Of a stretch of 64,000 nucleotides of DNA, positions 1 through 32,006 are shown piece after piece (position 1 is the stretch's first letter; each line of letters starts with the position of its first letter). Below the pieces are notes generated by a model. The model was not told the origin of the DNA. It saw nothing but the letters and a program-made list of their open reading frames with translations, and made no database searches. This stretch comes from an uncultured Pseudodesulfovibrio sp. Lineage in GTDB: Bacteria > Desulfobacterota > Desulfovibrionia > Desulfovibrionales > Desulfovibrionaceae. The stretch is taken from positions 1,897,501 to 1,961,500 of the forward strand of contig NZ_OY776488.1 in the NCBI RefSeq assembly GCF_963675635.1. The letters run 5' to 3'. The translations under genes and the position numbers were made by a program.

Positions 1-894
1 TTTTCCGCCATGACCCGAAGCGAGATAATCACACTAATAATTTTCCTGCTGGGCGGCTTGTCCATAGCAGTTACGGCGGTGGTTATCTCCCGAAAGCTTG
101 TGGTCAGGCTCAAGTCAATGGATGCAGAGTCCGAGCTGATGAGCAAGCAGATAGTGGAGACAGGCAAGTTGGCAGCCATTGGCGAACTTGCAGCCGGGAT
201 AGCCCATGAAATCAATAACCCTGTGGCTATCATGATAGAGGAAGCTGGTTGGGTCAGTGACCTGCTTGAAGATGAAAAGGCCCAGATAACAGCGGCCTCG
301 GAAATCGATCGAGCACTGCGCCAAGTCCGCACCCAAGGTCAACGGTGCAAGGATATCACCCACAAGCTTCTCAGTTTCGCACGACAGTCCGATTCCCGCC
401 TCACTGAAATTTCACTCCCGTCTCTTATCGAAGAAGTCGTAGACATCTCGATGCAGCAAGCCAAATATGCCAAGGTTGATTTTTCTCTGGACCTCGACAC
501 AGAGCTGCCGCGCATCAATGCTTCCACCACTGAACTGCAACAGGTTCTTCTCAATCTCGTCAACAATTCCATTCAGGCCATGGAGCCTGTCGGAGGCGTC
601 CTGTCCATCTCATGCAATGCAGAGATCGAAAATGTTGTCATCTCTGTGGCCGACACCGGCCCCGGCATACCGGCAGCCAATCTGAGCCGGATATTCGATC
701 CGTTTTTCACTACCAAACCCGTGGGCAAAGGCAGCGGCCTTGGTTTGTCCATATGTTTCGGAATAATCCACCAGATGGGTGGAGAAATAGACGTTGAAAG
801 CGCAGTGGGCAAAGGGACCAGATTCAATATCCGGCTTCCCTTTCCTCCTCACAACACCAATCAGGAAACAGCAAAGGAGATGCTCCATGACTGA
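1..894 (+). CDS. Sensor histidine kinase, C-terminal part (5' end outside window)
   Basis: The reading frame is open from base 1, so the internal ATG at 10 is probably not the true start and the sensory part lies upstream. What remains is the last membrane helix (about residues 8-30 from the ATG), a short linker, a HisKA domain ([14 protein letters not shown], phospho-acceptor His) and an HATPase domain with N box (NLVNNSIQAM), G1 (DTGPGIP), F box (FDPFFTTKP) and G2 (GSGLGLS). The sequence aligns end to end with the C-terminal half of the full kinase at 30276-32006, including the residues before the helix, which supports truncation only by the window edge. It overlaps the next receiver gene by 8 bases and heads a kinase plus three receivers plus permease operon. 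The signal sensed is unknown. Confidence 0.93.
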   Translation, partial: FSAMTRSEIITLIIFLLGGLSIAVTAVVISRKLVVRLKSMDAESELMSKQIVETGKLAAIGELAAGIAHEINNPVAIMIEEAGWVSDLLEDEKAQITAASEIDRALRQVRTQGQRCKDITHKLLSFARQSDSRLTEISLPSLIEEVVDISMQQAKYAKVDFSLDLDTELPRINASTTELQQVLLNLVNNSIQAMEPVGGVLSISCNAEIENVVISVADTGPGIPAANLSRIFDPFFTTKPVGKGSGLGLSICFGIIHQMGGEIDVESAVGKGTRFNIRLPFPPHNTNQETAKEMLHD

Positions 895-1318
895 TGCCAC
901 CGTATTGATAGTGGACGATGAAGTGGGTTTCGTCGAAGCGATCGCCAAGCGGCTCGACAAGCGAAACATGACTGTCTTCAAGGCGTTCAACGGCGACGAG
1001 GCCATGGCCAGTCTCGCAGAAAATGCGGGTATTCAAGTCGTCATTCTGGACATGAAGATGCCCATCAAGGATGGACTGACCGTATTGCAGGAAATCAAGG
1101 AAGCGTACCCCTTGGTCGAAGTCATCATGTTGACTGGTCATGCAACGGTTCCCACGGCCATCGAAGGTATCCAGCACGGTGCCTACGACTACCTCATGAA
1201 GCCCTGCGACTTCGGAGAATTGACTGCCAAGATTCTCGAAGCCGTTTCGCTGAAAGAGGATCACGAGGCTGAGGCAGTGGATGCCCGAGTCTCGGATATT
1301 GCCAACCGGATGGCATAA
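887..1318 (+). CDS. Single-domain response regulator (receiver 1 of cassette 1)
   Basis: A 143-residue protein consisting of one CheY-like receiver and a short acidic tail, with no output domain. The acidic pair (VDDE), phospho-acceptor Asp (VVILDMKMP), switch Thr (MLTGHA) and Lys (LMKPCD) are all present. The start at 887 overlaps the upstream kinase stop and follows an AAGGAG at about 874-879, so translation is probably coupled. Its closest relative in the window is the 143-residue receiver at 29812-30243, the first receiver of the second cassette; both share a PLVEVIMLTGHAT segment. It probably takes phosphate from the upstream kinase and passes or sinks it; the downstream partner is unknown. 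Confidence 0.92.
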   Translation: MTDATVLIVDDEVGFVEAIAKRLDKRNMTVFKAFNGDEAMASLAENAGIQVVILDMKMPIKDGLTVLQEIKEAYPLVEVIMLTGHATVPTAIEGIQHGAYDYLMKPCDFGELTAKILEAVSLKEDHEAEAVDARVSDIANRMA

Positions 1319-1340
1319 CAATTCGAAGACGGAACGGACC

Positions 1341-1727
1341 ATGACTGGCAAAAAAGAAATCAGACTTCTCATCGTGGACGATGAAACCGGGTTTGCCGAT
1401 GTGCTCTGCAAACGCATGAAGCGGCGCGGCATTGAAGCCTGCTCCGCTTTCAGCGGGGAAGAAGCCATTCGGATTCTCCGAAAGCGTGATTTCGATATTG
1501 CCATAGTGGACCTCAAGCTTGAAGGGATGAACGGAGTCGAAATTCTGAAGGTTTTCAAACTGCTCGTACCGCAGATGCCGGTTATCATGTTGACCGGCCA
1601 TGGATGCGAAGTAGCACGAGCGGCCTGTATTAAAAACGGTGCCGCCGGATACCTGTCAAAGCCATTCGACTTCAATGAACTGCTGGACATGATTTGCCAG
1701 CATGCCGGACTGGAGAGAGCGTCATGA
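1341..1727 (+). CDS. Single-domain response regulator (receiver 2 of cassette 1)
   Basis: A 128-residue receiver-only protein. VDDE acidic residues, Asp in IAIVDLKLEG, Thr in IMLTGHG and Lys in LSKPFD are visible. The residues after the Asp are LKLE rather than the common M-P, a feature shared with its counterpart at 29413-29799, also 128 residues. The ATG at 1341 is chosen because homology begins there and a longer frame would only add an unlikely basic leader overlapping the previous gene. Its stop overlaps the ATG of the next receiver. Role inferred: an intermediate or phosphate sink in a relay with the cassette kinase. Confidence 0.9.
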   Translation: MTGKKEIRLLIVDDETGFADVLCKRMKRRGIEACSAFSGEEAIRILRKRDFDIAIVDLKLEGMNGVEILKVFKLLVPQMPVIMLTGHGCEVARAACIKNGAAGYLSKPFDFNELLDMICQHAGLERAS

Positions 1728-2095
1728 AGCAACTCAGGGTTCTGCTGGTCGACGACGAAATTGATTTCAGCGCACCTCTTGGCAAGAGGCTGGCTCGACG
1801 GGGCATGACTGTGCATACAGCCTCCAGCGGCCTGAATGCGTTGACAGAACTTGAAACCCATCCAGTGGACGTCATCCTGCTTGATATCAAGATGGCGGGC
1901 ATGGACGGACTCAGGACCCTGAGCGAAATCAAGCGAACTCATCCAAAGGTAGCCGTCATCATGCTCACCGCCCATGTAGACACGGATATAGTCCTTGCAA
2001 GTATGGGGCTGGGAGCATGCGGGTACCTGATGAAGCCGGTAAACATTGATGAACTGGTTGACAAAGTACGCAAAGCAAGCAGAAATGATAAGTGA
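1724..2095 (+). CDS. Single-domain response regulator (receiver 3 of cassette 1)
   Basis: A 123-residue receiver-only protein with VDDE, Asp in VILLDIKMAG, Thr in IMLTAHV and Lys in LMKPVN. The ATG at 1724 overlaps the stop of receiver 2 and follows a GGAGAG at about 1712-1717. It occupies the place of the 136-residue receiver at 28990-29400 in the other cassette and ends about 70 bases before the TauE-family permease gene, so all five genes are probably one transcript. No DNA-binding or enzymatic output domain is present, so how it affects anything is not shown by the sequence. Confidence 0.9.
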   Translation: MKQLRVLLVDDEIDFSAPLGKRLARRGMTVHTASSGLNALTELETHPVDVILLDIKMAGMDGLRTLSEIKRTHPKVAVIMLTAHVDTDIVLASMGLGACGYLMKPVNIDELVDKVRKASRNDK

Positions 2096-2165: not shown

Positions 2166-3443
2166 ATGAGATTTTTCAGTCAGTGGGGGAAGTTCATGCT
2201 CGCCGGGGCTGGCGCCATGGCAGAATGGGAAATTGCCAACGCCAAATCCATTGTGAGCAGTCGAAAGAAGCTCATGATCATCGGTTTGATGATCATTCCC
2301 ATCATTCTTGGCGGTATTGCATTCGCTGATGAAATCGGACCGGTATTGCCTGATCTGCTCGGCGGCAAAAAGGCATACAGTCCTGCATTCTACAGCCTGG
2401 GCATTTTCATGGTGTCCATCGCCATCGGCATGGGTGCGGGTCTCATCACCGGATGTATCGGTGCAGGTGGCGGTTTCATCATCGCCCCGGCCCTCATGTC
2501 AGCAGGCATCAAGGGTATTCTGGCAGTCGGAACCGACCTGTTTCACATCTTTGCCAAGGCAATCATGGGCAGCGTCATCCACCGCAAACTCGGCAACGTT
2601 TCCGTACCCTTGGCCGCAGTATTCCTCATAGGTGCGATCATCGGTGCCACAGCAGGCGGTATTATCAACCGCGTGCTGTACGAGATCAACCCGGTATTGA
2701 GTGACGCGTTCATCACCACCATCTACTCCGTGATGCTCGGGTTCCTTGGTATGTATGCCCTGACCGACTTCCTGCGCTCACGCAAGGCAGGCGGCGGTGG
2801 CGATGCCCATGGCGGCTCCGAAGGTGCAGAACTGGGCGCCATGTCCAAGTCCCTTCAGGACGTCAATTTCCCGCCCATGATCAAGTTTGACCAAGATCTG
2901 ATCCCCGGCGGACGCCAGATCTCCTGGGTCTTCCTGGTCCTGTCCGGCGCCCTTGTCGGTCTTGCAGCCGGTATCATGGGCGTTGGCGGTGGATTCCTGA
3001 CCTTCCCGATCTTCGTCTACGTTCTTGGTGTGTCTTCCATGACCACTGTCGGTACCGACATCTTCCAGATCGTATTCACTGCCGGTTTTGCATCGGTCAG
3101 CCAGTACGCCATCTATGGTTTCATCTTCTACACCCTGGCCATGGGTATGCTTATCGGCTCGCTGCTCGGCATCCAGATCGGTGCACTGGTCACCAAAGTC
3201 GTGCCCGGTATCACCATTCGCGGATTCTACGCCATGGCGGTCCTGGCAGGCTTCGTAAACCGTATCTTCGCTCTGCCCGGCAAGCTCGGAGAGATGGGCA
3301 TCATCCCCATTTCGCCAGGAGTCGGTTCGGTACTCAATGACATCGGTATATGGGCGTTCTTCATCGTCATCGGAGGATTCTCCGTCTGGGTCATTGGAAC
3401 GTTCCTCAAGAACATTCCTTCGCTCAAGAGAAAGGAGTCATAA
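2166..3443 (+). CDS. TauE/SafE family anion permease (DUF81)
   Basis: A 425-residue integral membrane protein. The two halves repeat the family signature: GLITGCIGAGGGF...GTDLFH in the first half and GLAAGIMGVGGGF...GTDIFQ in the second, each in a glycine-rich transmembrane hairpin. This is the TauE/SafE family, whose members export sulfite, sulfoacetate or other small organic anions. A hydrophilic loop of about 60 residues with a GGGGDAHGGSEG stretch joins the halves. The N-terminal extension of about 35 residues before the first helix is longer than usual. A purine-rich ribosome site (about 2147-2160) decides the start at 2166. It follows the receiver cassette and is followed after one base by a small membrane protein. 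In a sulfate reducer a sulfur oxyanion is a reasonable but unproven substrate. Confidence 0.88.
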   Translation: MRFFSQWGKFMLAGAGAMAEWEIANAKSIVSSRKKLMIIGLMIIPIILGGIAFADEIGPVLPDLLGGKKAYSPAFYSLGIFMVSIAIGMGAGLITGCIGAGGGFIIAPALMSAGIKGILAVGTDLFHIFAKAIMGSVIHRKLGNVSVPLAAVFLIGAIIGATAGGIINRVLYEINPVLSDAFITTIYSVMLGFLGMYALTDFLRSRKAGGGGDAHGGSEGAELGAMSKSLQDVNFPPMIKFDQDLIPGGRQISWVFLVLSGALVGLAAGIMGVGGGFLTFPIFVYVLGVSSMTTVGTDIFQIVFTAGFASVSQYAIYGFIFYTLAMGMLIGSLLGIQIGALVTKVVPGITIRGFYAMAVLAGFVNRIFALPGKLGEMGIIPISPGVGSVLNDIGIWAFFIVIGGFSVWVIGTFLKNIPSLKRKES

Positions 3444-3444
3444 A

Positions 3445-4131
3445 ATGATTTACAACAAGAAAGAATTCTATGGAGGCGCGGGTCTCCTGGCAGCCTTCTT
3501 CGTGGTCCTTTTCTTCATGTTCCAGCCCATGTTCAATGGCCACAATGCCATGGAGTATCTGGACAACCTCTACAACTCGATCTCTAAGGGATCCGTGGAA
3601 TATGCCCCGGCACTTAAAGAAGAATCCAGTAAGTACCAGACCTTGAATATTGATTTAAACCTTACTTACGACAGCGAAACTGAAGCCAAGCAGGCTGCAA
3701 CCCTGTTCCTGACAACCGGAGCCACGGCCGTGCCGCAGGGCAAGATATTAAATATCACCGGCTCCCTGGGCAACATATTGAACGGTACCCTGACGGACTG
3801 CGACTCCATGTATCATAACAAGGGAGATGTCCTTGAAGCCAAGTACAATGTCGAGCCTCGACGCGCCATGTTCAACTGGTGGACCAGTCTGAAGCTCATG
3901 GACAAGGAGCTCAAGGCCCAAGGAAAGTTCGAAGCCGCCAAAATCACCAACACTGTAGAAAAGAAGGGCGTGGAAGCCGCATATAACTACTACAAGATCG
4001 AGCCTGTACATATCATGGACGAACTTGGTCTGGTTATCTTCTCGCTGGCTTTCTATGTCTTCTACACCCTGTGGTATGGCTTCGCCATTCTCTTTGTCTT
4101 CGAAGGATGGGGCTTGAAGCTCAGCCACTAA
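3445..4131 (+). CDS. Unknown two-helix membrane protein, partner of the TauE permease
   Basis: A 228-residue protein with no family I recognise. One transmembrane helix lies at about residues 11-30 and another near the C-terminus (about 195-220); the roughly 165 residues between look soluble and would face the periplasm if the N-terminus is inside. That region holds two tryptophans in a row (FNWWTSLK) and one cysteine. The start at 3445 lies one base after the permease stop and has AAAGGAG upstream within the permease end, so the two proteins are probably translationally coupled. An accessory or periplasmic sensing subunit for the permease is a guess from context only. Confidence 0.8.
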   Translation: MIYNKKEFYGGAGLLAAFFVVLFFMFQPMFNGHNAMEYLDNLYNSISKGSVEYAPALKEESSKYQTLNIDLNLTYDSETEAKQAATLFLTTGATAVPQGKILNITGSLGNILNGTLTDCDSMYHNKGDVLEAKYNVEPRRAMFNWWTSLKLMDKELKAQGKFEAAKITNTVEKKGVEAAYNYYKIEPVHIMDELGLVIFSLAFYVFYTLWYGFAILFVFEGWGLKLSH

Positions 4132-4271: not shown

Positions 4272-5762
4272 ATGATGAACCTCCACAATTATTATGAAAC
4301 GGTCATTCAGCTGACTCACGGCATCGTGGTCACACTCGACCTCAAAGGGAGGATCATTCACGGCAACTCCGAGCTGGAGTTTCTCTCTGGCTACACTATG
4401 CAGGAGTTGGCCGGAAGGGACTGGTTTGAAACCTTCATCCCTGAAGATGACCGCGAAGTAGCTCGGCACGCAATCACAGACAGCTTTCTTGAACAGGGAG
4501 TGTCTGCTTTTGCAGGAGTCATTTCAGCCCGGGACGGTGACACTGTTTACGTCAATTGGAACCTCAAACCTCTGGTTGACTCCAATGGCGAGATTATCAG
4601 CCTCTTGTGCGTTGGTCAGGATGTAACCAACCTCATTCTCCGTGAAAAAGGCCTCCTTCGCGAACGATACTCCCTTATTGAACGGAACCGGGAACTCGAC
4701 TGCCTCTACAAAATCAGCCAGATCATGACCAGTATGGAACCAAAACTCGCCGTCATGCTCGACCAGGTAGTCCATCTGCTGCCACATGCCTTCAAAGACC
4801 CGGCACAAACCCATGTCCGGCTCACGCTGGATGGAGAAAGCTGGAAAACCGTGGGACGGTCCGAAGACACCCACTCCTTTGCCGAACCGCTTGTCGTCAA
4901 CGAAGAGCACCGGGGCATGCTGACCGTCTCCGTGGACAAAGACTCCAACAATCCGTCCCCGGCGGTACTCAAGCACAAGAAAGGTTTCCTGGTCATGGTG
5001 GCGAAACACGTCGCCATTCTCATCGGCAAAAAGGAAACCCGACGTGCCAAGCAGGCACTTGAAAGCCAGCTTCGTCAGGCTGACAGATTGGCGAAAATAG
5101 GCCAGTTCTCTGCTGGTGTTGCCCATGAGATCAACGAACCGTTGGCAAACATCCTCGGTTTTGCCCAACTGGCCCTCCAGACACCGGGACTCTCAGAACA
5201 GGCGGCCAACGATCTCGGAAACATTGTCGATTCATCCCTGCATGCACGCGAGATCATTCGCAAGCTCATGTTTTTCAGTCGTCAATTCCCGCCTCAAAAA
5301 ATCTCCGTGAATCTCAACGAGTTGGTAGACCAGGCGCTGCACATTACGTCTGCCAATGCCAAACGCTACCATGTGGAGGTCAGGCGTGAATTCGACGATG
5401 CCCTGCCCCACATCATGGCCGACCCGCAGCACATCAAACAGGTTGTGGTCAATCTGGCAGCCAATGCTATTCAAGCCATGCCCGATGGCGGCACCCTGAC
5501 CGCCCGTACAGTGGACAAGGGTGATGTCTATCTCATAATAGAAGATACCGGCACCGGTATGGGACAGGACACGCTCAAGCACATATTCAGCCCGTTCTAC
5601 ACCACCAAGGATGTAGATAAAGGAACCGGGCTGGGGCTGTCAGTAGTTCACGGCATCGTCAAGGCACACAACGGATTCATCCAGGTAAACTCCGCTCCTA
5701 ATCAAGGTACACAGGTAGAAATTGCCTTCCCCAGCCAACGCAACACAACGGTATACCCATGA
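4272..5762 (+). CDS. Cytoplasmic PAS-domain sensor histidine kinase
   Basis: A 496-residue kinase without a membrane helix. Order: PAS domain (about 10-125), a GAF-like or degenerate middle segment (about 140-260), HisKA (GQFSAGVAHEINEPL, with the phospho-His) and HATPase ([32 protein letters not shown]). AAAGGA at about 4263-4268 supports the start at 4272; an ATG three bases later is also possible. The stop overlaps the ATG of the NtrC-type regulator, so this is a kinase/sigma54 activator pair. The signal is presumably cytoplasmic, for example redox or a ligand bound by PAS. The target genes are not shown, although a sigma54 promoter occurs at 20010. Confidence 0.92.
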   Translation: MMNLHNYYETVIQLTHGIVVTLDLKGRIIHGNSELEFLSGYTMQELAGRDWFETFIPEDDREVARHAITDSFLEQGVSAFAGVISARDGDTVYVNWNLKPLVDSNGEIISLLCVGQDVTNLILREKGLLRERYSLIERNRELDCLYKISQIMTSMEPKLAVMLDQVVHLLPHAFKDPAQTHVRLTLDGESWKTVGRSEDTHSFAEPLVVNEEHRGMLTVSVDKDSNNPSPAVLKHKKGFLVMVAKHVAILIGKKETRRAKQALESQLRQADRLAKIGQFSAGVAHEINEPLANILGFAQLALQTPGLSEQAANDLGNIVDSSLHAREIIRKLMFFSRQFPPQKISVNLNELVDQALHITSANAKRYHVEVRREFDDALPHIMADPQHIKQVVVNLAANAIQAMPDGGTLTARTVDKGDVYLIIEDTGTGMGQDTLKHIFSPFYTTKDVDKGTGLGLSVVHGIVKAHNGFIQVNSAPNQGTQVEIAFPSQRNTTVYP

Positions 5763-7093
5763 GTGATCAAATCAGGATTCTGGCGGTGGACGACAGCGCC
5801 AACACCCTTGAAGTTCTCAAGCGCAATCTTCAGTCCGGCGGCTACGAGGTCTACACCTGTCAGGCCGTGGCTGAAGCCCTCCCCCTGCTTGAAGAACTGG
5901 ACATAGACCTTGTTATCACGGACTTTCGTATGCCGCAGGCTACTGGTCTTGACCTCATCAAATACGTCCGCGAGAACCATCAGCACATCGAAATAATGAT
6001 GATCACCGGCTACCCTTCCATTCCCGGTGCGGTCAAAGCCATTAAGGACGGAGCCGGAGAATATCTCGCCAAACCGTTTACGGCAGAAGAACTGATCTCA
6101 GCAGTACAGCGCATAGTGGATCGCCTACTTAGGCGACGCATTCTCAGTACAGGCGACACTCCCCCGGACAATTTCGGCATCATTGGCAATTCCCCTGAAA
6201 TGAAACGTGTTTTTCGACGTATTGAACAGGCCTCAAAAAGTGATGCAAATGTTCTCATTTCCGGCAATTCCGGCACAGGCAAGGAGCTTGTAGCCCGCGC
6301 TGTGCACTATAACAGTGACCGGCGGTCCGCTCCGTTCGTCCCGGTCAACTGTACCGCCATCCCGGAAGGGCTGGTGGAATCCGAACTCTTCGGTCACGTC
6401 AAAGGAGCCTTTACCGGAGCCAAAAACGGTCGAGCCGGTTTTTTTGAGATTGCCCACGGCGGTTCTATTTTTCTGGACGAAATCGGGGACGCCAGTCCCA
6501 ATATGCAGGCAAAAATCCTCCGCGTGATCCAGTCCAAGGAGTTCTGCAAGGTCGGCTCCAGCAAAGTCCTCACGGCTGACACCCGCATTCTTGCCGCCAC
6601 CCATGAAAACCTGAAGCAACTGGTGGAAGAAGGCAGTTTCCGCGAAGACCTGTATTACCGCATCAATATCGTGGACATTCCGGTTCCCACTCTGCGCGAA
6701 CGTGGTGACGACATACTCGCGCTCATCACCCATTTTCTGAACAAATTCTCTAAAGCCATGCGGCGCACCGCCCCCATCCTGAGTGACGAAGCTTACAACG
6801 CCTTGCGTAATCATCCCTGGCCCGGCAACGTCCGCGAAATGGAGAACCTTATCCATCGCCTGGTTGTCGTCGTGGACAGGGATGTCATCGAAGTCGCGGA
6901 CCTTCCGGAAGACATGCGTTTCAGCCTGCCTGCCGGTGGGCGCGTAGACCGTTCACTGGATGAAGTGGAAACCGAGCATATCCTCAATGTTCTGGCCATG
7001 ACCGGAGACAATAAAACCCGCGCCGCAGAAATTCTCGGTATCAATCGAAAGACCCTCCGCGAGAAGCTCAAACGCATAGAATCAAATAAATAA
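5759..7093 (+). CDS. NtrC-family sigma54-dependent response regulator
   Basis: A 444-residue activator with three domains. Receiver (residues 1-125) has VDDS, phospho-acceptor Asp in VITDFRMP and Lys in LAKPFT. The AAA+ domain (about 145-380) has Walker A GNSGTGKE, the sigma54-contacting loop GAFTGA, Walker B SIFLDEIGD and arginine-finger region (FREDLYYR). The C-terminal Fis-type helix-turn-helix (about 400-442) includes TRAAEILGINRKTLREKL. All key residues for ATP-driven opening of sigma54 promoters are present. ATG at 5759 overlaps the kinase stop (ATGA). It probably acts at promoters of the -24/-12 type; no binding site could be assigned. Confidence 0.95.
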   Translation: MSDQIRILAVDDSANTLEVLKRNLQSGGYEVYTCQAVAEALPLLEELDIDLVITDFRMPQATGLDLIKYVRENHQHIEIMMITGYPSIPGAVKAIKDGAGEYLAKPFTAEELISAVQRIVDRLLRRRILSTGDTPPDNFGIIGNSPEMKRVFRRIEQASKSDANVLISGNSGTGKELVARAVHYNSDRRSAPFVPVNCTAIPEGLVESELFGHVKGAFTGAKNGRAGFFEIAHGGSIFLDEIGDASPNMQAKILRVIQSKEFCKVGSSKVLTADTRILAATHENLKQLVEEGSFREDLYYRINIVDIPVPTLRERGDDILALITHFLNKFSKAMRRTAPILSDEAYNALRNHPWPGNVREMENLIHRLVVVVDRDVIEVADLPEDMRFSLPAGGRVDRSLDEVETEHILNVLAMTGDNKTRAAEILGINRKTLREKLKRIESNK

Positions 7094-23818: not shown

Positions 23819-24478
23819 ATGACAGAATTATATACTTTCGTCACCGGCCCCCTCGCATGGGTTGCCTTCGGCATCTTCATCATCGGTTCCATTTACCGCC
23901 TGGTCAGCATGTTCGCTTTGGCCAAGGCCAAGGATGGTTCCTCAATCGCATACATGAGCTGGTTCTACGGACTGCGCTCGATTCTCGCGTGGATGATCCC
24001 CTTCAAGTCCATGGGATGGAAATCAGATCCTCTCATGACCGTGACCACCTTCGTGTTCCACATCGGTTTCCTGCTGGTTGCAGTATTCCTGGGCGCGCAT
24101 GTGGTTTTATGGGATACCGCATTCGGCATCAGCCTCCCGAGTCTTCCGGCTCAGGCTGGTGACATCATCAGCTTCGTGGTCATCGCAGGCTGTGCGGTAT
24201 TTGCATACCGTCGCCTCACGCTGCCCCACGTCAAGGGTGTCACCCGTTGCCAGGATTGGTTTGCCCTGATCCTCGTCGTGCTGCCGTTCATCACCGGCGT
24301 TCTGGCCTATCATCAGATAGGTCCGGTTCTCCTGATGACCACCCTGCACGTGCTCTCCGGTGAATTGCTGATCGCACTGATCCCGTTCACACGCCTGAGC
24401 CATGCGTTGTTCGTCCTCTTCACCAGGGCGTACATGGGTTCGGAGTTCGGCGGTGTCCGCCATGCCAATGACTGGTAG
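23819..24478 (+). CDS. tmcC: TmcC, NarI-like membrane subunit of the Tmc complex
   Basis: A 219-residue integral membrane protein with about five helices (roughly 8-30, 75-97, 107-127, 145-170, 178-200). It belongs to the cytochrome-b/NarI-like membrane subunits of Tmc/Hme/Dsr complexes; histidines within helices (FHIGF, GAHVVL, TTLHVLSG and RLSHALF) are candidate haem ligands. It links the periplasmic cytochrome TmcA with the cytoplasmic iron-sulfur subunit TmcB. The ATG follows GAAGGGAGA closely. Confidence 0.9.
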   Translation: MTELYTFVTGPLAWVAFGIFIIGSIYRLVSMFALAKAKDGSSIAYMSWFYGLRSILAWMIPFKSMGWKSDPLMTVTTFVFHIGFLLVAVFLGAHVVLWDTAFGISLPSLPAQAGDIISFVVIAGCAVFAYRRLTLPHVKGVTRCQDWFALILVVLPFITGVLAYHQIGPVLLMTTLHVLSGELLIALIPFTRLSHALFVLFTRAYMGSEFGGVRHANDW

Positions 24479-24511
24479 GCCAAACCATCACAGTAATGCG
24501 AGGTACGAATA

Positions 24512-25831
24512 ATGAGTCACATAGCTGACAGAATCATATCCGATGTCGGCCTTGAGGTCGGTGTCGCCGGTCTGACCACCGAAAAGATCGAGAAAGTGGT
24601 CAACCAAATGCTCAAAGGTGAAACCGGTGCCAAACTCCGGGCGTACAAAGAGACCTGCATGCGTTGCGGCCTCTGCTCTCAGGGTTGCCACTACTACATG
24701 TCCCATGACCAGGACCCGAGTTATTCTCCGGTCAACAAGGCTACGGAGACCATGTATGAACTGATGGAGAAAAAGGGCAAGGTCGAACCCCAGCGCATCT
24801 ATGAGATGGCGCAGATGGCCTACACCGAATGCAACTTGTGCAAACGGTGCGCTCACTACTGTCCCATCGGTATTGACACCGGTTACATCATGTCCATGGT
24901 GCGCCGCATCTGTTACCTGCTGGACGTTGTTCCGCAGTACATACGCGACACATCACACTCCCACTCCTCCACCATGAACCAGATGTGGGTCAAGGATGAC
25001 GAGTGGATCGACACCCTGCAATGGCAGGAAGACGAAGCTCGCGACGAGTTCCCGGATCTGCGCATTCCTTTGGACAAAGAGGGAGCGGACATCTACTACT
25101 CGGTCATCGCGCCGGAACCCAAGTTCCGTACCCAGCTCATCTACCAGGCTGCCGCCATCATGAACGCAGCCGGTTGCGACTGGACCATGCCGTCCCATCC
25201 CGGTTGGGATAACTCGGACATGTGCATGTTCGTCGGTGATTTCGAAAACATGGGCCGTCTGAAACGCGCTCACTACGAATCTGCTCAGAAGTTGCGCGTC
25301 AAGCGCATCGTCATGGGCGAATGTGGTCACGCCTTCCGCTCTGTCTACGACATGGGCAACCGCTGGCTGGGCCATAAAAAGATGCCGGTTCCCGTTATCC
25401 ACGCTATCGACTTCTACTGGGAGTTGATCCGCGACAACAAGATCAAGATCACGCATAAATACGAAAAACCCGTCACAATTCAGGATCCGTGCAACATCAT
25501 CCGCGGCCGTGGTCTCATGGACAAGCTGCGCGATGTCGTCCACTACCTTTGTGAGGAAGTCGTCGAAATGACTCCCAACCGTGAGCACAACTACTGTTGC
25601 TGCGCCGGTGGCGGTGTCATCAACTGTGGTCCGCCGTTCAAGAACACCCGCATGACTGGCAACAGAGTCAAGGCCGAGCAGCTCAAGGCTACCGGCGTCA
25701 AGGATGTTGTCATCCCATGCCATAACTGCCACGGCGGCATTGAAGATATCATCGGTTATTATGATCTCGGCATGCACGGAAAGTTCATCGGCGATATCAT
25801 TTATGAACTGATGGAAAAACCGGAAGTGTAA
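24512..25831 (+). CDS. tmcB: TmcB, HdrD-like iron-sulfur subunit of the Tmc complex
   Basis: A 439-residue cytoplasmic protein. Two [4Fe-4S] motifs lie in the N-terminal third: CMRCGLCSQGC (about residue 50) and CNLCKRCAHYCP (about 110). The C-terminal part has the HdrD/CCG pattern, with single Cys positions (GECGHAF, DPCNII), the double-Cys block YCCCAGGG and a final CHNCHGG, as in the subunit that binds the special non-cubane cluster in heterodisulfide reductases. It probably exchanges electrons with a cytoplasmic thiol/disulfide such as DsrC. Located between tmcC and tmcA. Confidence 0.93.
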   Translation: MSHIADRIISDVGLEVGVAGLTTEKIEKVVNQMLKGETGAKLRAYKETCMRCGLCSQGCHYYMSHDQDPSYSPVNKATETMYELMEKKGKVEPQRIYEMAQMAYTECNLCKRCAHYCPIGIDTGYIMSMVRRICYLLDVVPQYIRDTSHSHSSTMNQMWVKDDEWIDTLQWQEDEARDEFPDLRIPLDKEGADIYYSVIAPEPKFRTQLIYQAAAIMNAAGCDWTMPSHPGWDNSDMCMFVGDFENMGRLKRAHYESAQKLRVKRIVMGECGHAFRSVYDMGNRWLGHKKMPVPVIHAIDFYWELIRDNKIKITHKYEKPVTIQDPCNIIRGRGLMDKLRDVVHYLCEEVVEMTPNREHNYCCCAGGGVINCGPPFKNTRMTGNRVKAEQLKATGVKDVVIPCHNCHGGIEDIIGYYDLGMHGKFIGDIIYELMEKPEV

Positions 25832-25841
25832 GGAGGACGCC

Positions 25842-26243
25842 ATGCACAAGAAAAATACCATTAAGCTTGCGGCCTCCATGCTGACCATCATTGCGCTGGT
25901 CATCGCATACATGGCTCCGGCCGCCTTTGCTCAGGACGACATGACAATGATCCCCGTGGACGCATTCGCCAAGCTCGAACGCCCGCAGGTACCCTTCATG
26001 CATGACGCTCACAATGAAAAGGCCCAATTGGAAGACTGCGTTGCCTGTCACCACGGCAAGACCGAAGACGGCAAGCAGGATCTCGAAAACTCCAGCGACG
26101 GCGAAACCTGTGCATCCTGCCACGCGGTAGAACGCACTGACGGCGGCACCCCGCTGATGCGCGCCTACCACAAGCAGTGCATTGACTGCCACGAGCAGCA
26201 GGCCAAAGGCCCGGTTGCCTGCGGCGAATGCCACGCAAAGTAG
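25842..26243 (+). CDS. tmcA: TmcA, acidic (type II) tetrahaem cytochrome c3
   Basis: A 133-residue periplasmic cytochrome with a signal peptide (about residues 1-29, ending AAFA). Four haem motifs are visible in order: CVACH, CASCH, CIDCH and CGECH, plus additional histidines (MHDAHN, ACHHGK, AYHKQC) for bis-His ligation. The many Asp/Glu residues fit the acidic type II cytochrome c3 that accepts electrons from type I cytochrome c3 and hydrogenase. AAGGAGG lies six bases before the ATG. It is the last gene of tmcDCBA. Confidence 0.95.
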   Translation: MHKKNTIKLAASMLTIIALVIAYMAPAAFAQDDMTMIPVDAFAKLERPQVPFMHDAHNEKAQLEDCVACHHGKTEDGKQDLENSSDGETCASCHAVERTDGGTPLMRAYHKQCIDCHEQQAKGPVACGECHAK

Positions 26244-26358: not shown

Positions 26359-28931
26359 TCAGTCAAACATCTTGAAGTCTTCGAGAAACCGTTCCTTACG
26401 CCGTTGCACTTCAGCGTTATTGGTCATGATCATGTCGAGTTGCCGAGTGTGGGTGATCAGGTACCCCAGAATTTCAACCGTCTAGCCATGGCCTTACGGG
26501 GGAGTCCTTCGACACGGGCGAACATGTTATCCTGACGCACACGAACCCGAAAATCGAGATCTTCCAACAGATCTCCCACGAAACGTGCTCGCAGGATGCG
26601 GCGTTCCACATTGGCTGCACCGCCCTTGAATTGGAAGCTGGCGTAATTTTCACTGGTTCGATCAGACACCAATGACTCCACACCACAAAAATGAAAGCCG
26701 AAACGGGATTGCAAAGAACAATAATTCTTTGAAATCATGAAGTAATTTTTCTGGGTATACCGGGTTCCCGACGATGGATTCAGGTCCGGGTTCATGGTCG
26801 CCTCAAACATGACCGACATAAGCCCCTTGGTGTGAACCGGCGGCGGCCCTTCCCACTGCACAGCCTGCATTCCTTCCCACAAAGCATGCATCGGATAAGA
26901 GTCCACATGCTCTAACATTATACACTGGTCAGCTCTATGCTCACCTTCGGGCAAAAAACCATCGTCAAGGTTGAGCACCCAGAACTGTTTTGGGACATCG
27001 CAGATAAGCTGGCGGCTGGCGGCCTCGATAAAATCATTATCCGTACCGAATTCAAACATTCCAGACACGCCCTTCTCATGACAATACCGCATGATATCAT
27101 GGAGTGTCTTGCAATTCTCAGGTTTAAACTCGGGAGATTCCGGATTGGTCAGATTCAGACGGACAATATGCCGCGCAGCCTTCCTGAGCGCTGCCTGCAC
27201 AGGGCTTCCGCGCATGATCCGCTCTCTGGGTTTCTCGACAAGCAGGGCTTCCACTGCCCCATCATACACGGCGTGCCCGTCGGCATCCACAGTGAGGATT
27301 CGTCCATTCTCGAAATTTCCGACCACTCCTTTCACTCCAAACAGGGCAGGTACACCAAATTCTCTGGCCACATTGGCCAAATGACCAGCCATTCCACCCT
27401 GTTCAGAAATCAATGCACTGCATCGATCAAGCAACGCCGCGCGGCTGGGCAAAGCGTGTTTGAGAATCATCACTCCCCCGTCAGGGAAAGTCAGTGCATC
27501 CACGTCCTTGCGTACGGAATAGGCTGGGCCGACGCCCACTCCAGGGCTGGCGACCCGTCCGCCGGACAACACGGGTTTCGGCAACTCGGCAGCAGAAACA
27601 TGAGGCACACTGGAGGATTCGATCTGCATAAGCGGTCTGCATTGCAACAAATGAAAAACGCCATCGCGAGTCATGGCCCATTCGATGTCCTGAGGAATAC
27701 CGAATTGCATTTCGATACGCACAGCCTCGCGTGCGACAGTCGCAGCCTGTTCATCAGTCAGAGACGGTTCACACCGTAATTCTTCCAACATGCTTTCCCG
27801 GCAAACGCCAGTCTCCGGACTGCACACGAACATGTCCGGTTTTTCGGCTATTATCCGTTCACTCACGACCAGAGTTTCCCGATTCACCAGAAAGACATCA
27901 GTCTCAGCAGTGCCATCCACAACAGGTTTCGGCAACCCCCAGACAGAATGAATGGACACAGCTTCATCCCGAACGTTCACCGGATTCCGCGAATAGGCCA
28001 CGCCTCCGCACATGGCGTCAACCATGGTCATACATCCCACGCTCATGGCAACGTCCTCGTCCCGTATACCGCGATTCATGCGATAGGCCATAGCCTGTCT
28101 GGTAAATTTTGAAGCCAGCACTTCCTTGTAGGCATCAAGCAATGAATCGCGGTTCACGTTCAGCACGGACCGATACTGTCCGGCATATGATGAACCTTCG
28201 GCGTCCTCGCCCAAAGCACTGGAGCGGACAGCCAGATCCGGTCGTTCGCCAAGCTGGTCACTCAATCGATTATAGGCGGTCAAAATGGCTTCAGCCAGAT
28301 CATCGGGCAGTCGGGTATCCATAACCAGCTGCATTATATCTGACGAAGTACGAAACAAGGCTTCCCTGTCATTGCTATCAGTGGCTTGAATGAGTCGTGC
28401 CACCTCGGGTCTCAGGCCTCCGGCTTCAATAAAACGACGATAAGCAGCAACGGTTATCACGAATCCAGCAGGGATGTTCAGCCCAAGAGACTGGCCGGCC
28501 TCTCCGAGCATAGCCATTTTTGGACCACACAAATCAGCGTGATCCCGTCCGACTGACGAGAGATCGACAACAAGCTCACCACCCACCTCATGGCTTTCCG
28601 GGGCAAGCGCAGCCATGATGCGCTCATTGATGGACTCCATGGAAGCAACGAGTTCGTCATGGCCTTTTGCGTCCAATTCTCCAAGATGTCGGACCATTTG
28701 AAAAATCGACGTGGAAATTCGGGTGCACAGCGTGTTCACATACTGCATCCCATACGGCGTAAATCCCCGCAGTGCCTCTTCAAGTTCGCCTATCAATTCA
28801 TGGGCACGCGTATTGGCCTGAATCAGAAGACGAAAATGATCGTACCGAGCCGCAAAGACCCGACGGATTTCCGCCAGTTCCTCAGGGCTTTTCTTCCGTG
28901 CTCTCCACGGAAGCCAATCAAAAATACTCAT
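26359..28931 (-). CDS. PEP synthase-like (pyruvate/PEP dikinase family) protein with a 3' frameshift
   Basis: The main frame runs from 28931 to a TGA at 26457-26459 (824 residues). An N-terminal helical region (about 1-150) is followed by the pyruvate-phosphate-dikinase ATP-binding domain (IPAGFVITVAAY, VRSSALGEDAEGSSYAGQY, GGVAYSRNPV, HLLQCRPL) and a PEP-utiliser swivelling domain (GGRVASPGVGVG, with candidate phospho-His in GMAGHLANVARE). The C-terminal 250 residues lack the PEP-binding barrel of full PEP synthases. At a four-C run (26464-26467) the -1 frame opens into 33 plausible residues (GYLITHTRQLDMIMTN...) ending at 26359, so the natural protein is probably longer. GGAGG precedes the ATG. 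It is the last gene of the second kinase/receiver operon. Substrate unknown. Confidence 0.8.
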
Positions 28932-28989
28932 CAGGCCTCCGTCGACACAAAGCATGGGATTTCATGAGAAAAAATGACATGAGAGGCAG

Positions 28990-29400
28990 CTATTGGCTAT
29001 GTTCCTTGGCCGTGATTTTTTCTTCTCGATGCCGTTTGCGGGTAGAAGCATCTTCCAGCTTGTATAAGAGTTCCTCGAACTCCACAGGCTTCATCAGATA
29101 ATCAAATGCCCCCAGTTCCATACCATGGATGGCAATATCCATATTGGCGTGGCCTGTAAGCATGACCACCTCAACCAACGGATTAATGAGCTTGATCTTA
29201 TGCAGAGTGGTCAAGCCGTCCATACCGGGCATCTTGACATCCAACAAGACGACATCCGGTTCAAAAATCTTCATCGCCTCAAGCGCCTGTACGCCGGAAT
29301 CCGCTTCTTGAACGATCATACCCCGCCTGTCGAGGCGTTTGCCCAATGTTTTGCGAAAACCAGCTTCATCATCCACGAGAAGCACCTTGATGTCTGCCAT
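28990..29400 (-). CDS. Single-domain response regulator (receiver 3 of cassette 2)
   Basis: A 136-residue receiver with a basic C-terminal tail (STRKRHREEKITAKEHSQ). VDDE, Asp in VVLLDVKMPG, Thr in MLTGHA and Lys in LMKPVE are intact. The ATG at 29400 has GGAGGG six bases upstream; a GTG two codons earlier is less likely. It lies between receiver 2 and the PEP-synthase-like gene and corresponds by position to the receiver at 1724-2095. Confidence 0.91.
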   Translation of the reverse strand: MADIKVLLVDDEAGFRKTLGKRLDRRGMIVQEADSGVQALEAMKIFEPDVVLLDVKMPGMDGLTTLHKIKLINPLVEVVMLTGHANMDIAIHGMELGAFDYLMKPVEFEELLYKLEDASTRKRHREEKITAKEHSQ

Positions 29401-29412
29401 ATACACCCTCCG

Positions 29413-29799
29413 TCAATTGCCAGTTTCAGCCTGACCGACGGCCTGGCGTATCTTATTCAACAAATCATCAAGATCACACGGCTTGAGCATGTAGTCGAAT
29501 GCGCCATGAGCCATTCCTTCCCGAGCAGCCTGTTCACTCCCGTGACCAGTCAACATGATCACCGGCAACTCCGGAACCATCTTCTTGAATATCTGCAAGA
29601 CCTCGATACCGCCCATGTCCTCCAGCTTGAGGTCAAGAACGGCCACGTCAAAGTCTTTACCCCTCAGTGTCTGTATGCCCTCGGCTCCACTGATAGCAAC
29701 TGTAACATCAAGTCCACGCTTTCCCAGCCGCTTTTGTAGCACGTCCAGAAAGCCGGCCTCATCGTCCACCAGAAGAAGGCGAATGGGCTCATCATTCAT
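29413..29799 (-). CDS. Single-domain response regulator (receiver 2 of cassette 2)
   Basis: A 128-residue receiver-only protein, same length as its counterpart at 1341-1727 and sharing the variant post-Asp sequence DLKLE (VAVLDLKLED), IMLTGHG and the KP loop (MLKPCD). AGGAGGG precedes the ATG. It lies 12 bases after receiver 1 and 12 bases before receiver 3. Confidence 0.91.
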   Translation of the reverse strand: MNDEPIRLLLVDDEAGFLDVLQKRLGKRGLDVTVAISGAEGIQTLRGKDFDVAVLDLKLEDMGGIEVLQIFKKMVPELPVIMLTGHGSEQAAREGMAHGAFDYMLKPCDLDDLLNKIRQAVGQAETGN

Positions 29800-29811: not shown

Positions 29812-30243
29812 CTAGTCGCCCCTGCGCAGGACAATATGTCTGGCCCTGGCTTCAAGGATCTTGGTTTCCTGTGCCTGTTTTTTGTCATAGGCTTCATTGA
29901 TTTTTGTCAACAATTCTTCTAGGTCGCACGGCTTCATCATATAGTCGAATGCGCCGGATTTCATGCCTTCAATGGCAGATTCAACCGTAGCATGTCCGGT
30001 CAGCATGATGACTTCCACCAACGGATATTCCGCTTTGACAATTTTCAGAGCCTCGTTACCGTCCATACCCGGCATCTTGACGTCCATAACCACCACATCA
30101 ATAAAATGGTTCACTGCCAGGGCGTCCACCGCCTGTTGACCACTATATGCGGTAGAAACCGTCAGACCTCGATTGTCCAACCGCTTGGCCATGGTGTCAA
30201 CAAAACCCTGTTCATCATCAACGAGCAGAATATTCGCAGGCAT
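29812..30243 (-). CDS. Single-domain response regulator (receiver 1 of cassette 2)
   Basis: A 143-residue receiver with VDDE, Asp in VVVMDVKMPG, Thr in MLTGHAT and Lys in MMKPCD, followed by a helical, charged tail of about 25 residues. AGGAGGAAAC precedes the ATG. It is the first receiver after the kinase, 32 bases downstream of it, and matches the receiver at 887-1318 in length and in a shared PLVEVIMLTGHAT block. Confidence 0.92.
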   Translation of the reverse strand: MPANILLVDDEQGFVDTMAKRLDNRGLTVSTAYSGQQAVDALAVNHFIDVVVMDVKMPGMDGNEALKIVKAEYPLVEVIMLTGHATVESAIEGMKSGAFDYMMKPCDLEELLTKINEAYDKKQAQETKILEARARHIVLRRGD

Positions 30244-30275: not shown

Positions 30276-32006
30276 TCACGTCCCATGTTCATTTATTCTA
30301 AAATCACACGCACTCGTATCTTCACCCTCTGGGATAGGCAGCCGGATGGTAAATTTGGTCCCCTGGTCCACGGCGGAGCTCACCGCAATAGTACCGTCCA
30401 TCTTGTTGATAATACCATAAATAATGGAGAGCCCGAGGCCGGTCCCCTTGCCTACTGGCTTGGTCGTAAAAAACGGATCGAAAATACGGGACAGGTTCGC
30501 CTGGGGGATACCGCAGCCGGTATCTGCAATGGAAACAACCACGGTGTTGTCTTCCACCCGGGTCATGATGTCGAGGCTACCGCCCCCCGGGTCCATAGCG
30601 TCGATGGCATTATTGACCAAATTCAGAAAAACCTGCTGCATTTCAGACGGGCTGGCTTCAACGAGCGGGATACTGTCCGCTAGGCTGGTTTCAATAATGA
30701 CATTGGCATACTTGGCCCGCTGCTCGGAAAGCTGCACGATTTCGAGAACCAGCTCATTGAGGCAAACCGACTTGACCGTGGGGTCGATCTTCCGGGCGAA
30801 ACTAAGCAGCTTGTGGGTGATTTCCTTACACCGCCCGCCCTGCGTCCGAATTTGATTGAGCGCACGTTGCACCTCTCGTTCATTGTCCTCCTTGCCGAGC
30901 CCTTCTTCCAACAGATCCTGAATCCACCCGGCCTCCTCGACCATTATAGCCACTGGATTATTGATCTCATGAGCAATACCTGCCGCCAGTTCCCCCACAG
31001 ATGCGAGCTTGCCGGCCTCAATAACCTGTTCGTTCATGATGTCCTTTGCCGCGTCCGCCCGGGCCACTTTACGCGCCATGCGCTTACTCATGAGATACGC
31101 CATGACCGCAATGGAGATGCCGCCTATAAGCAGGACCAACAACGCTAGATTCCTTGATCGATTCAATTCGGAAAAAGCATCTGCCGCATCCTGTTGATAC
31201 ACCATGATCCAGTCACCATTCTTGATGGGACTGGTCACAAAAATCGTTTCGCGTCCGGTGGTAGGAATCGTCTTAACAGTAATGGACGCCCTGCCGCGCA
31301 CCATCTCGAACCGCCCTGTCATGGATGCGGCCATCTGACGAAGGAACGGAACTTCGGCGGTCATGTCCCGACGCGGGGTCGTCTGGAATTCCGCCTGTCT
31401 ATTGATAATATAGGCCAGTCCGGTTTCTCCGATACGAATATCTTCGACCAGCTTGTTAAAGGCAATGAAGTCGAGCGTGGTCCGCAAAATCCATTCCTGA
31501 CCATCTTCATCGACGCGCAGGGCAATAGTAAAATGCGGTACACCCCGAAGCCCGAGGCCTACATCCCCGACATGGACTTTGTTCTTCTTTGCGGCTTTGA
31601 ACCACTCCTCTTTCGAATAATCCACGCCCTGAAGTTTGTATGGCCCGGCATAGGCAGCTTGAATACCTTTGCTGTTCACAAGACCCAGATCAACAAAATC
31701 ACTGCCATGTCCACGGACCAACGCATCATGCAAAGCCTGGAGACTGGCCGGATCATGCAGTCTGCCGAGTTCTATTATTTCGGCAAGAACCTGAATTTCA
31801 GCTACTTTTTCTTCAAGGTATGTATCCACAGATTGGTCGTGTTTAAGCACCAGCTCACGCAAATGGGCTTCAACTTTCTCTTCATACACGACGCTGTATT
31901 GATATCCGGCGATAAGAACAATGCACAGGAGGGGAGCAAAGGAAACGAGTATGATGGTAAACATCATGCTCTTGGCCAACCCATGGTAGTAATGCGTATC
32001 AGACAT
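30276..32006 (-). CDS. Cache-domain membrane histidine kinase (head of cassette 2)
   Basis: A 576-residue kinase with helices at about 13-36 and 285-308 enclosing a double-Cache periplasmic sensor (motifs [11 protein letters not shown] and [19 protein letters not shown]). HisKA ([14 protein letters not shown]) and HATPase ([33 protein letters not shown]) follow directly after a short linker. GGAGAAAG lies just before the ATG. The last 300 residues are paralogous to the kinase cut by the window start, so this gene shows what the missing part of cassette 1 may look like. Double-Cache sensors commonly bind small organic acids or amino acids; the ligand here is unknown. Confidence 0.94.

Follow-up and report, generated by a model that had tools for sequence, protein, structure and literature searches.

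Two signalling cassettes in the window

The window analysed in this work is a 64,000-nucleotide stretch (G000:C1:1897501-1961500) of an uncultured Pseudodesulfovibrio sp., whose 3.52-Mb genome (G000, hereafter the own genome) contains 94 Response_reg matches. It carries two colinear cassettes of a histidine kinase followed by three receiver-only proteins, K1-R1a-R1b-R1c (copy 1) and K2-R2a-R2b-R2c (copy 2). Genomes and loci are designated by G and L numbers, L001 being the own stretch with copy 1. Copy 1 lies on the forward strand and is cut by the window edge. Positions 1..894 encode the C-terminal part of K1, a cache histidine kinase (HisKA and HATPase); the full gene of 570 aa lies at G000:C1:1896682-1898394 (L001:11683-13395), with its ATG 819 bp before the window. 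It was followed by R1a (position a, 143 aa, 887..1318), R1b (position b, 128 aa, 1341..1727) and R1c (position c, 123 aa, 1724..2095). Copy 2 lies on the reverse strand and consists of K2 (dCache_1, HisKA and HATPase, 576 aa, 30276..32006), R2a (position a, 143 aa, 29812..30243), R2b (position b, 128 aa, 29413..29799) and R2c (position c, 28990..29400, 136 aa from ATG or 138 from an in-frame GTG). The spacing was operon-like, with a 4-bp overlap between R1b and R1c and gaps of 12-32 bp among K2 and the copy-2 receivers.

Different genes were found behind the two cassettes. The first gene past the copy-1 receivers encoded a TauE/SafE permease (PF01925; 2166..3443, forward strand), which scored 124 bits against a curated cut-off of 32.6; its start is a chosen in-frame ATG, and 2193-3443 was used in searches. 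It was followed on the same strand by SM1, a small protein of 228 aa (3445..4131) judged by eye to be a putative membrane protein, for which no Pfam family was found over cut-off. At copy 2, a phosphoenolpyruvate (PEP)-synthase-like enzyme of 832 aa with PPDK_N and PEP-utilizers domains (PPS2 of the PPS type; 26457..28955, reverse strand) started 34 bp past R2c on the same strand. Thus, copy 1 of the own genome carries TauE-SM1, and copy 2 carries PPS.

An earlier note, made from the letters of the window, had described a kinase plus three receiver-only genes, twice present and colinear, with receivers of 143, 128 and 123/136 residues. Our work confirmed this description, as Response_reg was the sole domain above cut-off in each of the six receivers, and the four-gene order recurred in relatives. 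As for a classical two-component output, no DNA-binding or enzymatic domain above cut-off was detected in any cassette receiver.

Receiver lineages at fixed positions

The same-position pairs R1a/R2a, R1b/R2b and R1c/R2c shared 54% identity each. Position c was not settled by identity alone, because R2a/R2c (56%) exceeded R1c/R2c (54%). Among 48 receiver domains from sampled stretches of the own genome, R1a/R2a and R1b/R2b were reciprocal best matches; the best match of R1c was R2c, and that of R2c was R2a with R1c second. A receiver tree was then built from 30 three-receiver loci, comprising 90 receivers and 6 own outgroup receivers over 128 columns, in which many forks were open. Positions a and b each formed one side of a branch, with SH-aLRT values of 94 and 96, so that these receivers grouped by position and not by cassette. 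The sequence features said to be common to the two copies also held over the 30 loci, with consensus motifs PLVEVIMLTGHAT and KPC at position a, DLKLE and MLTGHGSE at position b, and MLT.HA and KPV at position c. The phosphorylation residues (acidic Asp, phospho-Asp, Thr/Ser and Lys) were intact in 90/90 receivers, Thr/Ser being T in 89 and S in one.

When 22 two-receiver loci were classified by their nearest tree rows, several of them at long distances, 14 were a+b, 6 were b+c and 2 were a+c, and the receiver order was unchanged in all 22. No one receiver is therefore always retained. In G139, a single receiver, closest to class a, was present at copy 1, and two, closest to b and c, at copy 2. 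The fixed separate roles that had been proposed for the three receivers were thus supported in that a and b are separate positional lineages; position c is undecided, and the two-receiver loci vary in which receivers remain.

Kinase divergence and age of the split

K1 and K2 were 50% identical over 544 aa, and K1 aligned along the whole length of K2. The kinases were compared across 75 loci, including 63 of the K1/K2 type and 12 of a third type (K3). This set leaves out L003-L032 (short), L053-L056 (weak matches), L117-L136 and all kinase loci with scores up to 560 (e.g. L049-L052, L075, L076, L107). In a quick tree, the 14 copy-1 kinases formed one clade with a support of 100, and the copy-2 kinases stood elsewhere with those of other Desulfovibrionaceae; Desulfobacterales kinases were placed weakly beside copy 1. 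The K1 and K2 lineages part at family level or deeper. A recent tandem or segmental duplication was ruled out by these far-apart lineages, which therefore indicate an old split or transfer of one copy and no duplication within the own genome. Accordingly, the module described as duplicated is a recurrent one, and it is the recent duplication that has to be given up. The kinases of the Pseudodesulfovibrio metagenome-assembled loci L033 and L038 were 90% and 92% identical to those of the own genome.

Divergence was unevenly distributed along the kinases. Between copy 1 and copy 2 of the same genome (7 pairs), identity averaged 40% in the cache, 57% in the ATPase and 67% in the DHp domain. For the DHp helix that follows the His, the average rose to 84% in these pairs, compared with 55-60% against K3. 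Since the sensor domains have diverged and the partner-binding face has been kept, both kinases are predicted to serve both receiver sets.

Downstream genes across relatives

The output of each kinase locus was taken as the next labelled same-strand gene within seven genes, lone receivers being skipped. At the 63 K1/K2-type loci this gene was TauE in 34 (own copy 1 read from the window), PPS in 10, DASS in 5 and a hybrid kinase in 1. The full cassette form, kinase-R-R-(R)-TauE-SM1-PPS, was found across the phylum, and examples with three receivers were L080, L082, L084, L086, L087, L089, L094 and L104. The four-gene module was therefore rejected as the unit: the conserved unit extends into TauE-SM1 and/or PPS, genes which the earlier count of four proteins had overlooked.

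The same linkage was recovered from the output side. PPS was present in 103/297 genomes of the phylum (E 1e-60). Among the 30 best PPS loci, the own one included, TauE, SM1 or DASS lay in the flanks of about 1.5 kb in 21, and a receiver was directly beside PPS in 12. Twenty loci of other families were picked from the best PPS matches; TauE occurred with SM1 in 18 of them, and the order kinase-receivers-TauE-SM1-PPS in 7, one of which (L180) had an unlabelled frame between SM1 and PPS. TauE was directly upstream of SM1 in 30/30 best SM1 loci. Across 148 genomes (two genome draws taken as identical), the kinase family and SM1 were both present in 93, both missing in 50 and discordant in 5; Fisher values take no account of shared ancestry and were set aside.

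Division of outputs between two copies

The distribution of outputs was tabulated for 36 genomes of the genus from the match coordinates of K1, PPS2 and TauE, with PPS matches of at least 561 bits entered; the weaker PPS matches listed were all more than 6.5 kb away from any copy-1 kinase, the closest, in G116, at about 9 kb. Both copies were present in 23 genomes. Copy 1 had TauE in 23/23 and a PPS of its own in 0/23, and copy 2 had PPS in 23/23 and TauE in 3/23 (G139, G155, G168). In G166, the PPS near copy 1 sits behind the copy-2 kinase. The six genomes with copy 2 only had TauE in 6/6 and PPS in 5/6, the exception being the draft G169, with PPS on another contig. The four with copy 1 only had TauE in 4/4 and PPS in 4/4, upstream on the opposite strand. 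Both outputs were thus found in 9/10 single-copy genomes. Three genomes had neither copy (G149, G156, G164), and TauE and PPS occurred together in G149; one extra weaker kinase match in G174 was counted as neither copy. The table therefore reveals that the outputs are joined where there is one copy and mostly divided where there are two.

Several particulars of these loci were also recorded. In G166 (G166:C113:9689-21088) the cassettes stand head to tail as copy-2 kinase, PPS, copy-1 kinase and TauE. One internal stop each was listed in the copy-1 TauE of G139, the copy-2 PPS of G091, the copy-2 kinase of G116 and the copy-1 kinase of G171. At L057, L060, L061 and L062, a lone divergent receiver precedes the copy-1 kinase, in the place taken by a receiver and PPS in copy-1-only genomes, as if it were the remnant of a lost PPS. 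L063 and L069 have a receiver beside the divergent PPS in frames of 286 and 282 aa, about twice the lone-receiver length.

The PPS protein

PPS2 resembled PEP synthases over residues 127-607, scoring 317 bits against the family cut-off of 598. The phospho-His (His525), Arg531 and Glu532 were invariant in 17/17 aligned PPS. No C-terminal PEP/pyruvate-binding domain was detected in PPS2 by Pfam. The C-terminal portion of about 260 aa contained many invariant residues; no Pfam family matched it over cut-off, and a sequence search of the PDB returned one match at E 0.64. A structure prediction from three rows had a mean pLDDT of 30.5 and was not used. A receiver-only gene was directly upstream of each of the three own-genome PPS genes, a fourth, weak match (E 1e-9) standing outside this count, and one to five PPS-type genes were found per genome of the genus. 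A fusion of PPS to another domain was considered for L166, but no sign of one was seen, the extra length of the frame lying upstream of the part that matches PPS.

PPS also occurs in a third, DASS-linked own locus (L002, G000:C1:240000-259000), which reads R, R, DASS, Yip1, R, PPS, K3 kinase, R, short kinase, R.

Transcription and other neighbours of the cassettes

Behind TauE-SM1, the same strand at copy 1 carried a PAS histidine kinase (4272..5762) and an NtrC-family sigma-54 response regulator (5759..7093; REC, Sigma54_activat and HTH_8, with GAFTGA seen in the translation), the regulator being directly preceded by this kinase gene of its own. At all 14 copy-1 loci, a kinase and a 442-448-aa receiver protein came behind the cassette, with domains checked in the window. 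In addition, an exact -24/-12 sigma-54 consensus (TGGCAC-N5-TTGC) was located about 64 bp upstream of K1 (L001:11604-11619). The claim that neither copy has a DNA-binding output is accordingly not supported at copy 1.

For the K1 upstream stretch, 0.66 matches with at most one mismatch are expected by chance. A looser pattern, [TC]GG[CT]A[CT]-N5-TTGC, was sought in a span reaching from 700 bp ahead of the start of the kinase frame to 350 bp past it. It was found at 14/14 copy-1 loci, 12/14 copy-2 loci with TauE (not L093 and L104) and 0/9 copy-2 loci without TauE, compared with 70/1850 random stretches of the same length. In a narrower span (500 bp upstream plus 60), the counts were 11/14 for copy 1, 12/23 for copy 2 and 34/1850 for the control. 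Genome-wide, TGGCAYN5TTGCW had 19 matches against 6 for the reversed control. These counts suggested that the TauE-bearing form is probably under sigma-54, perhaps via the adjacent NtrC regulator; transcription of copy 1 would probably be driven by the predicted site and the PAS-kinase/NtrC pair. The TauE-less copy 2 retains its receivers with no sigma-54-like site. An exact consensus was also seen in the DASS-linked locus, at L002:5583.

On the other side of copy 2, tmcC, tmcB and tmcA (NCBIfam equivalogs over cut-off; 23819-26243, forward strand) run convergent to the cassette. A tmc neighbourhood at copy 2 was likewise labelled in L038, L077 and L078.

Relation to the nitrate cluster

A comparable gene set has been studied in Desulfovibrio vulgaris and D. 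alaskensis as the 'nitrate cluster' (DVU0251-DVU0245 and Dde_0597-Dde_0605; Korte 2014, PMC4001038). It comprises TauE DVU0251, a small protein, a phosphonate-binding protein, a kinase, the receiver-only DVU0247, the PPDK_N/PEP-utiliser protein DVU0246 and the phosphatase DVU0245. Isolated insertions in DVU0251, DVU0250, DVU0247 or DVU0246 are described there as growing equally with or without 100 mM nitrate, and nitrate inhibition persisted after insertion in the phosphatase gene. Because the mutant of this next gene stays sensitive, the effect of the PPS insertion is hard to ascribe to the gene behind it. The shared phenotype of receiver, PPS and permease insertions therefore supports one path, in a relative of the window cassettes. 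A leaky thiosulfate transporter was proposed by those authors, who mention mild sickness on thiosulfate as unpublished (PMC4001038).

The own genome has a corresponding locus, L137 (G000:C1:128000-144000), with TauE, a 202-aa protein, a phosphonate-binding protein, a kinase, a receiver, PPS and a DSP phosphatase. Its PPS was 35% identical to PPS2, and no sigma-54 site was found there with the looser pattern. A frame reading like a 4Fe-4S protein precedes this locus. As the window TauE is only distantly similar to the nitrate-cluster type, the logic of the nitrate cluster transfers to the window and its phenotype does not.

Proposed control of an anion permease

We propose that the two cassettes are halves of one control system for the TauE-SM1 anion permease, acting via PPS and not via DNA binding, a reading to which we give about an even chance. 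Gene order, divided outputs, the a and b receiver lineages, intact phosphorylation sites, sigma-54-like sites and the catalytic His of PPS are observed; we infer the direct receiver targets, the phosphorylation target of PPS, the ligand and the transported ion. In this system each cache kinase would sense an extracytoplasmic solute and phosphorylate three receiver-only proteins, and with closely similar DHp faces each should reach the other receiver set too, so that copy 1 and copy 2 probably work together. The receivers may act on or through PPS without binding DNA. PPS itself would be an ATP-driven phospho-His swivelling enzyme with an acceptor domain of no known family, and together with the receivers it would set the activity of the TauE-SM1 permease, which most likely imports a sulfur oxyanion (sulfate, thiosulfate or sulfite). 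In evolutionary terms, the two cassettes may be versions, separated long ago as paralogues or xenologues, of a single signalling-transport system of sulfate-reducing bacteria, and for this explanation as a whole the chances seem evenly balanced. More tentatively, and with some doubt, a novel kind of post-translational control can be imagined, in which three receivers, charged by cache kinases, switch an ATP-driven phospho-His enzyme that gates TauE-SM1 (elsewhere DASS), with the circuit split, in genomes of the genus, over two loci that would have to work as one unit.

A number of observations weigh against this proposal. Contact of the receivers with PPS or TauE is conjectural. Three of the two-copy genomes (G139, G155 and G168) have TauE at both loci, and 13/63 kinase loci, a few of these close to the end of a contig, have no labelled output nearby. 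The TauE-less copy-2 loci of the genus that were included in the kinase tree form one clade there (support 86), and the divided outputs thus rest on few independent events; TauE is also missing at L088 and L090, outside the genus. Position c was not clearly one clade, three changes being needed in the receiver tree. Forcing c into one clade, with the two long outgroup rows own_RN and own_R3b removed, was 2.3 log units worse at a p-AU of 0.425, and c monophyly was not rejected. From the nitrate cluster, outcomes for DVU0250 and DVU0245 vary between assays or species (PMC4001038), and the mutants are transposon insertions, so that effects of TauE and receiver insertions on later genes are possible. 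The cluster kinase is annotated as a pseudogene in D. vulgaris (PMC4001038), and the nitrate phenotype there is thus independent of it. L137 was matched to the nitrate cluster by gene order, without D. vulgaris sequence comparison; its TauE was 29% identical to the window TauE over 128 aa, and BLAST detected no similarity between SM1 and its small protein. Finally, the 3' end of PPS2 is shifted (26370-26480, reverse strand), leaving a protein about 35 residues shorter than its relatives. The conserved tail (GYL..HTRQLDM motif) is present in another frame in the own genome, and the shift is either a real frameshift or a sequencing error.

Receiver-only proteins are known phosphate sinks and relays, and those of the cassettes might tune the kinases in this way, the output being transcription via the PAS kinase/NtrC pair and sigma-54, with PPS and TauE merely regulated. 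The kinase and 442-448-aa receiver protein behind 14/14 copy-1 loci and the sigma-54-like sites at the same 14 agree with this explanation. It is harder to reconcile with the TauE-less copy 2, which has no such site (0/9) yet has a kinase, three receivers and PPS, or with K2, which lacks a receiver domain (HPt domains were not searched for). In D. vulgaris, moreover, insertions in the receiver or PPS gene have the same effect as one in the transporter gene (PMC4001038), and we hold a sink or relay role to be rather unlikely. That PPS is a plain metabolic enzyme, forming or consuming PEP for use of the transported compound and linked to the permease by co-expression, would fit its PPDK_N and PEP-utiliser domains, which match PEP synthase over residues 127-607. 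This is unlikely, given about 260 conserved residues of no known family in place of the PEP/pyruvate-binding domain, a score of 317 bits, far under the 598 of PEP synthase, and one to five PPS genes per genus genome, of which the three own ones each follow a receiver gene.

It is also conceivable that receivers a, b and c bind unrelated targets, such as second-messenger enzymes or parts of redox complexes, Tmc among them, and that the linkage to the permease is incidental. Three distinct receivers permit three targets, and tmcABC stands beside copy 2 in the window as well as at L038, L077 and L078. However, Tmc was labelled at those four loci only, and the TauE, DASS and PPS neighbours recur across families; such scattered targets appear improbable. 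Under the control model of two cassette halves, receiver positions, divided outputs and the published mutants allow direct tests.

Sulfate respiration begins with the uptake of sulfate, thiosulfate or sulfite, a step whose control is little understood. The nitrate sensitivity of sulfate reducers, of concern in oil-field souring, maps to a relative of the window cassette. If the proposal is true, a two-component output without DNA binding would exist in a good part of the phylum, judging from the 103/297 genomes with the PPS family, and many receiver-only proteins would gain a role.

Comparison with known systems

PPS shares with the PEP synthase and rifampin phosphotransferase superfamily the ATP-grasp PPDK_N domain and the phospho-His swivelling domain with its conserved His; it differs in its N-terminal stretch and in the C-terminal portion of about 260 aa, which belong to no known family. 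The cassette receivers resemble CheY-like single-domain response regulators in having the receiver alone with an intact phosphorylation site, but unlike these they stand three in a fixed order, within a cassette to which a permease and a PPS-like enzyme are linked.

With the nitrate cluster, the window has in common TauE, a histidine kinase and a receiver-only gene beside a PPDK_N/PEP-utiliser gene, although the nitrate cluster has one receiver and the window cassettes three. This linkage is spread over the window, TauE being at copy 1, receivers at both and PPS at copy 2, and is found at one copy in relatives. Neither a phosphonate-binding protein nor a DSP phosphatase was among the labelled neighbours of L001, copy 2 or the near-identical L033, and the window cassettes are therefore relatives and not members of the nitrate cluster.

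Clusters of DASS and SulP sulfate transporters accompanied by cache kinases have been reported in Desulfobacteraceae (Sci Adv 2025, PMC11887813), in a study that terms the regulators WalR type and proposes PhoRB-like transcription. As in the window, the anion transporter of those clusters has cache sensor kinases and response regulators as neighbours, and the window has TauE-SM1 and PPS where they have DASS and CBS proteins. In the main text of that study, neither 'TauE' nor 'PEP synthase' occurs. A kinase-R-R-DASS form was present in L035, L039, L044 and L045, and the own L002 is also of the DASS form. Of the 17 short receiver frames of the former four loci, ten were scanned, and nine were receiver-only and one receiver plus CBS; longer receiver proteins of 453-478 aa are present there as well. 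No labelled DASS lay beside either window copy, and no search aimed at CBS domains was made there. In the available main text of a sulfate-transporter comparison (PMC5840216), there was no mention of two-component systems, response regulators or histidine kinases, and the portions available of PMC3949148, PMC4641369, PMC3333781 and PMC4215793 held nothing bearing on the cassette. The literature search found no report joining PEP synthase, response regulator, TauE and operon, which is no proof of absence from print. Taken together, the window cassettes belong with the known transporter-linked two-component clusters, and what is new in them is that the outputs are divided, that the receivers are fixed by position and that a PPS-like effector is present.

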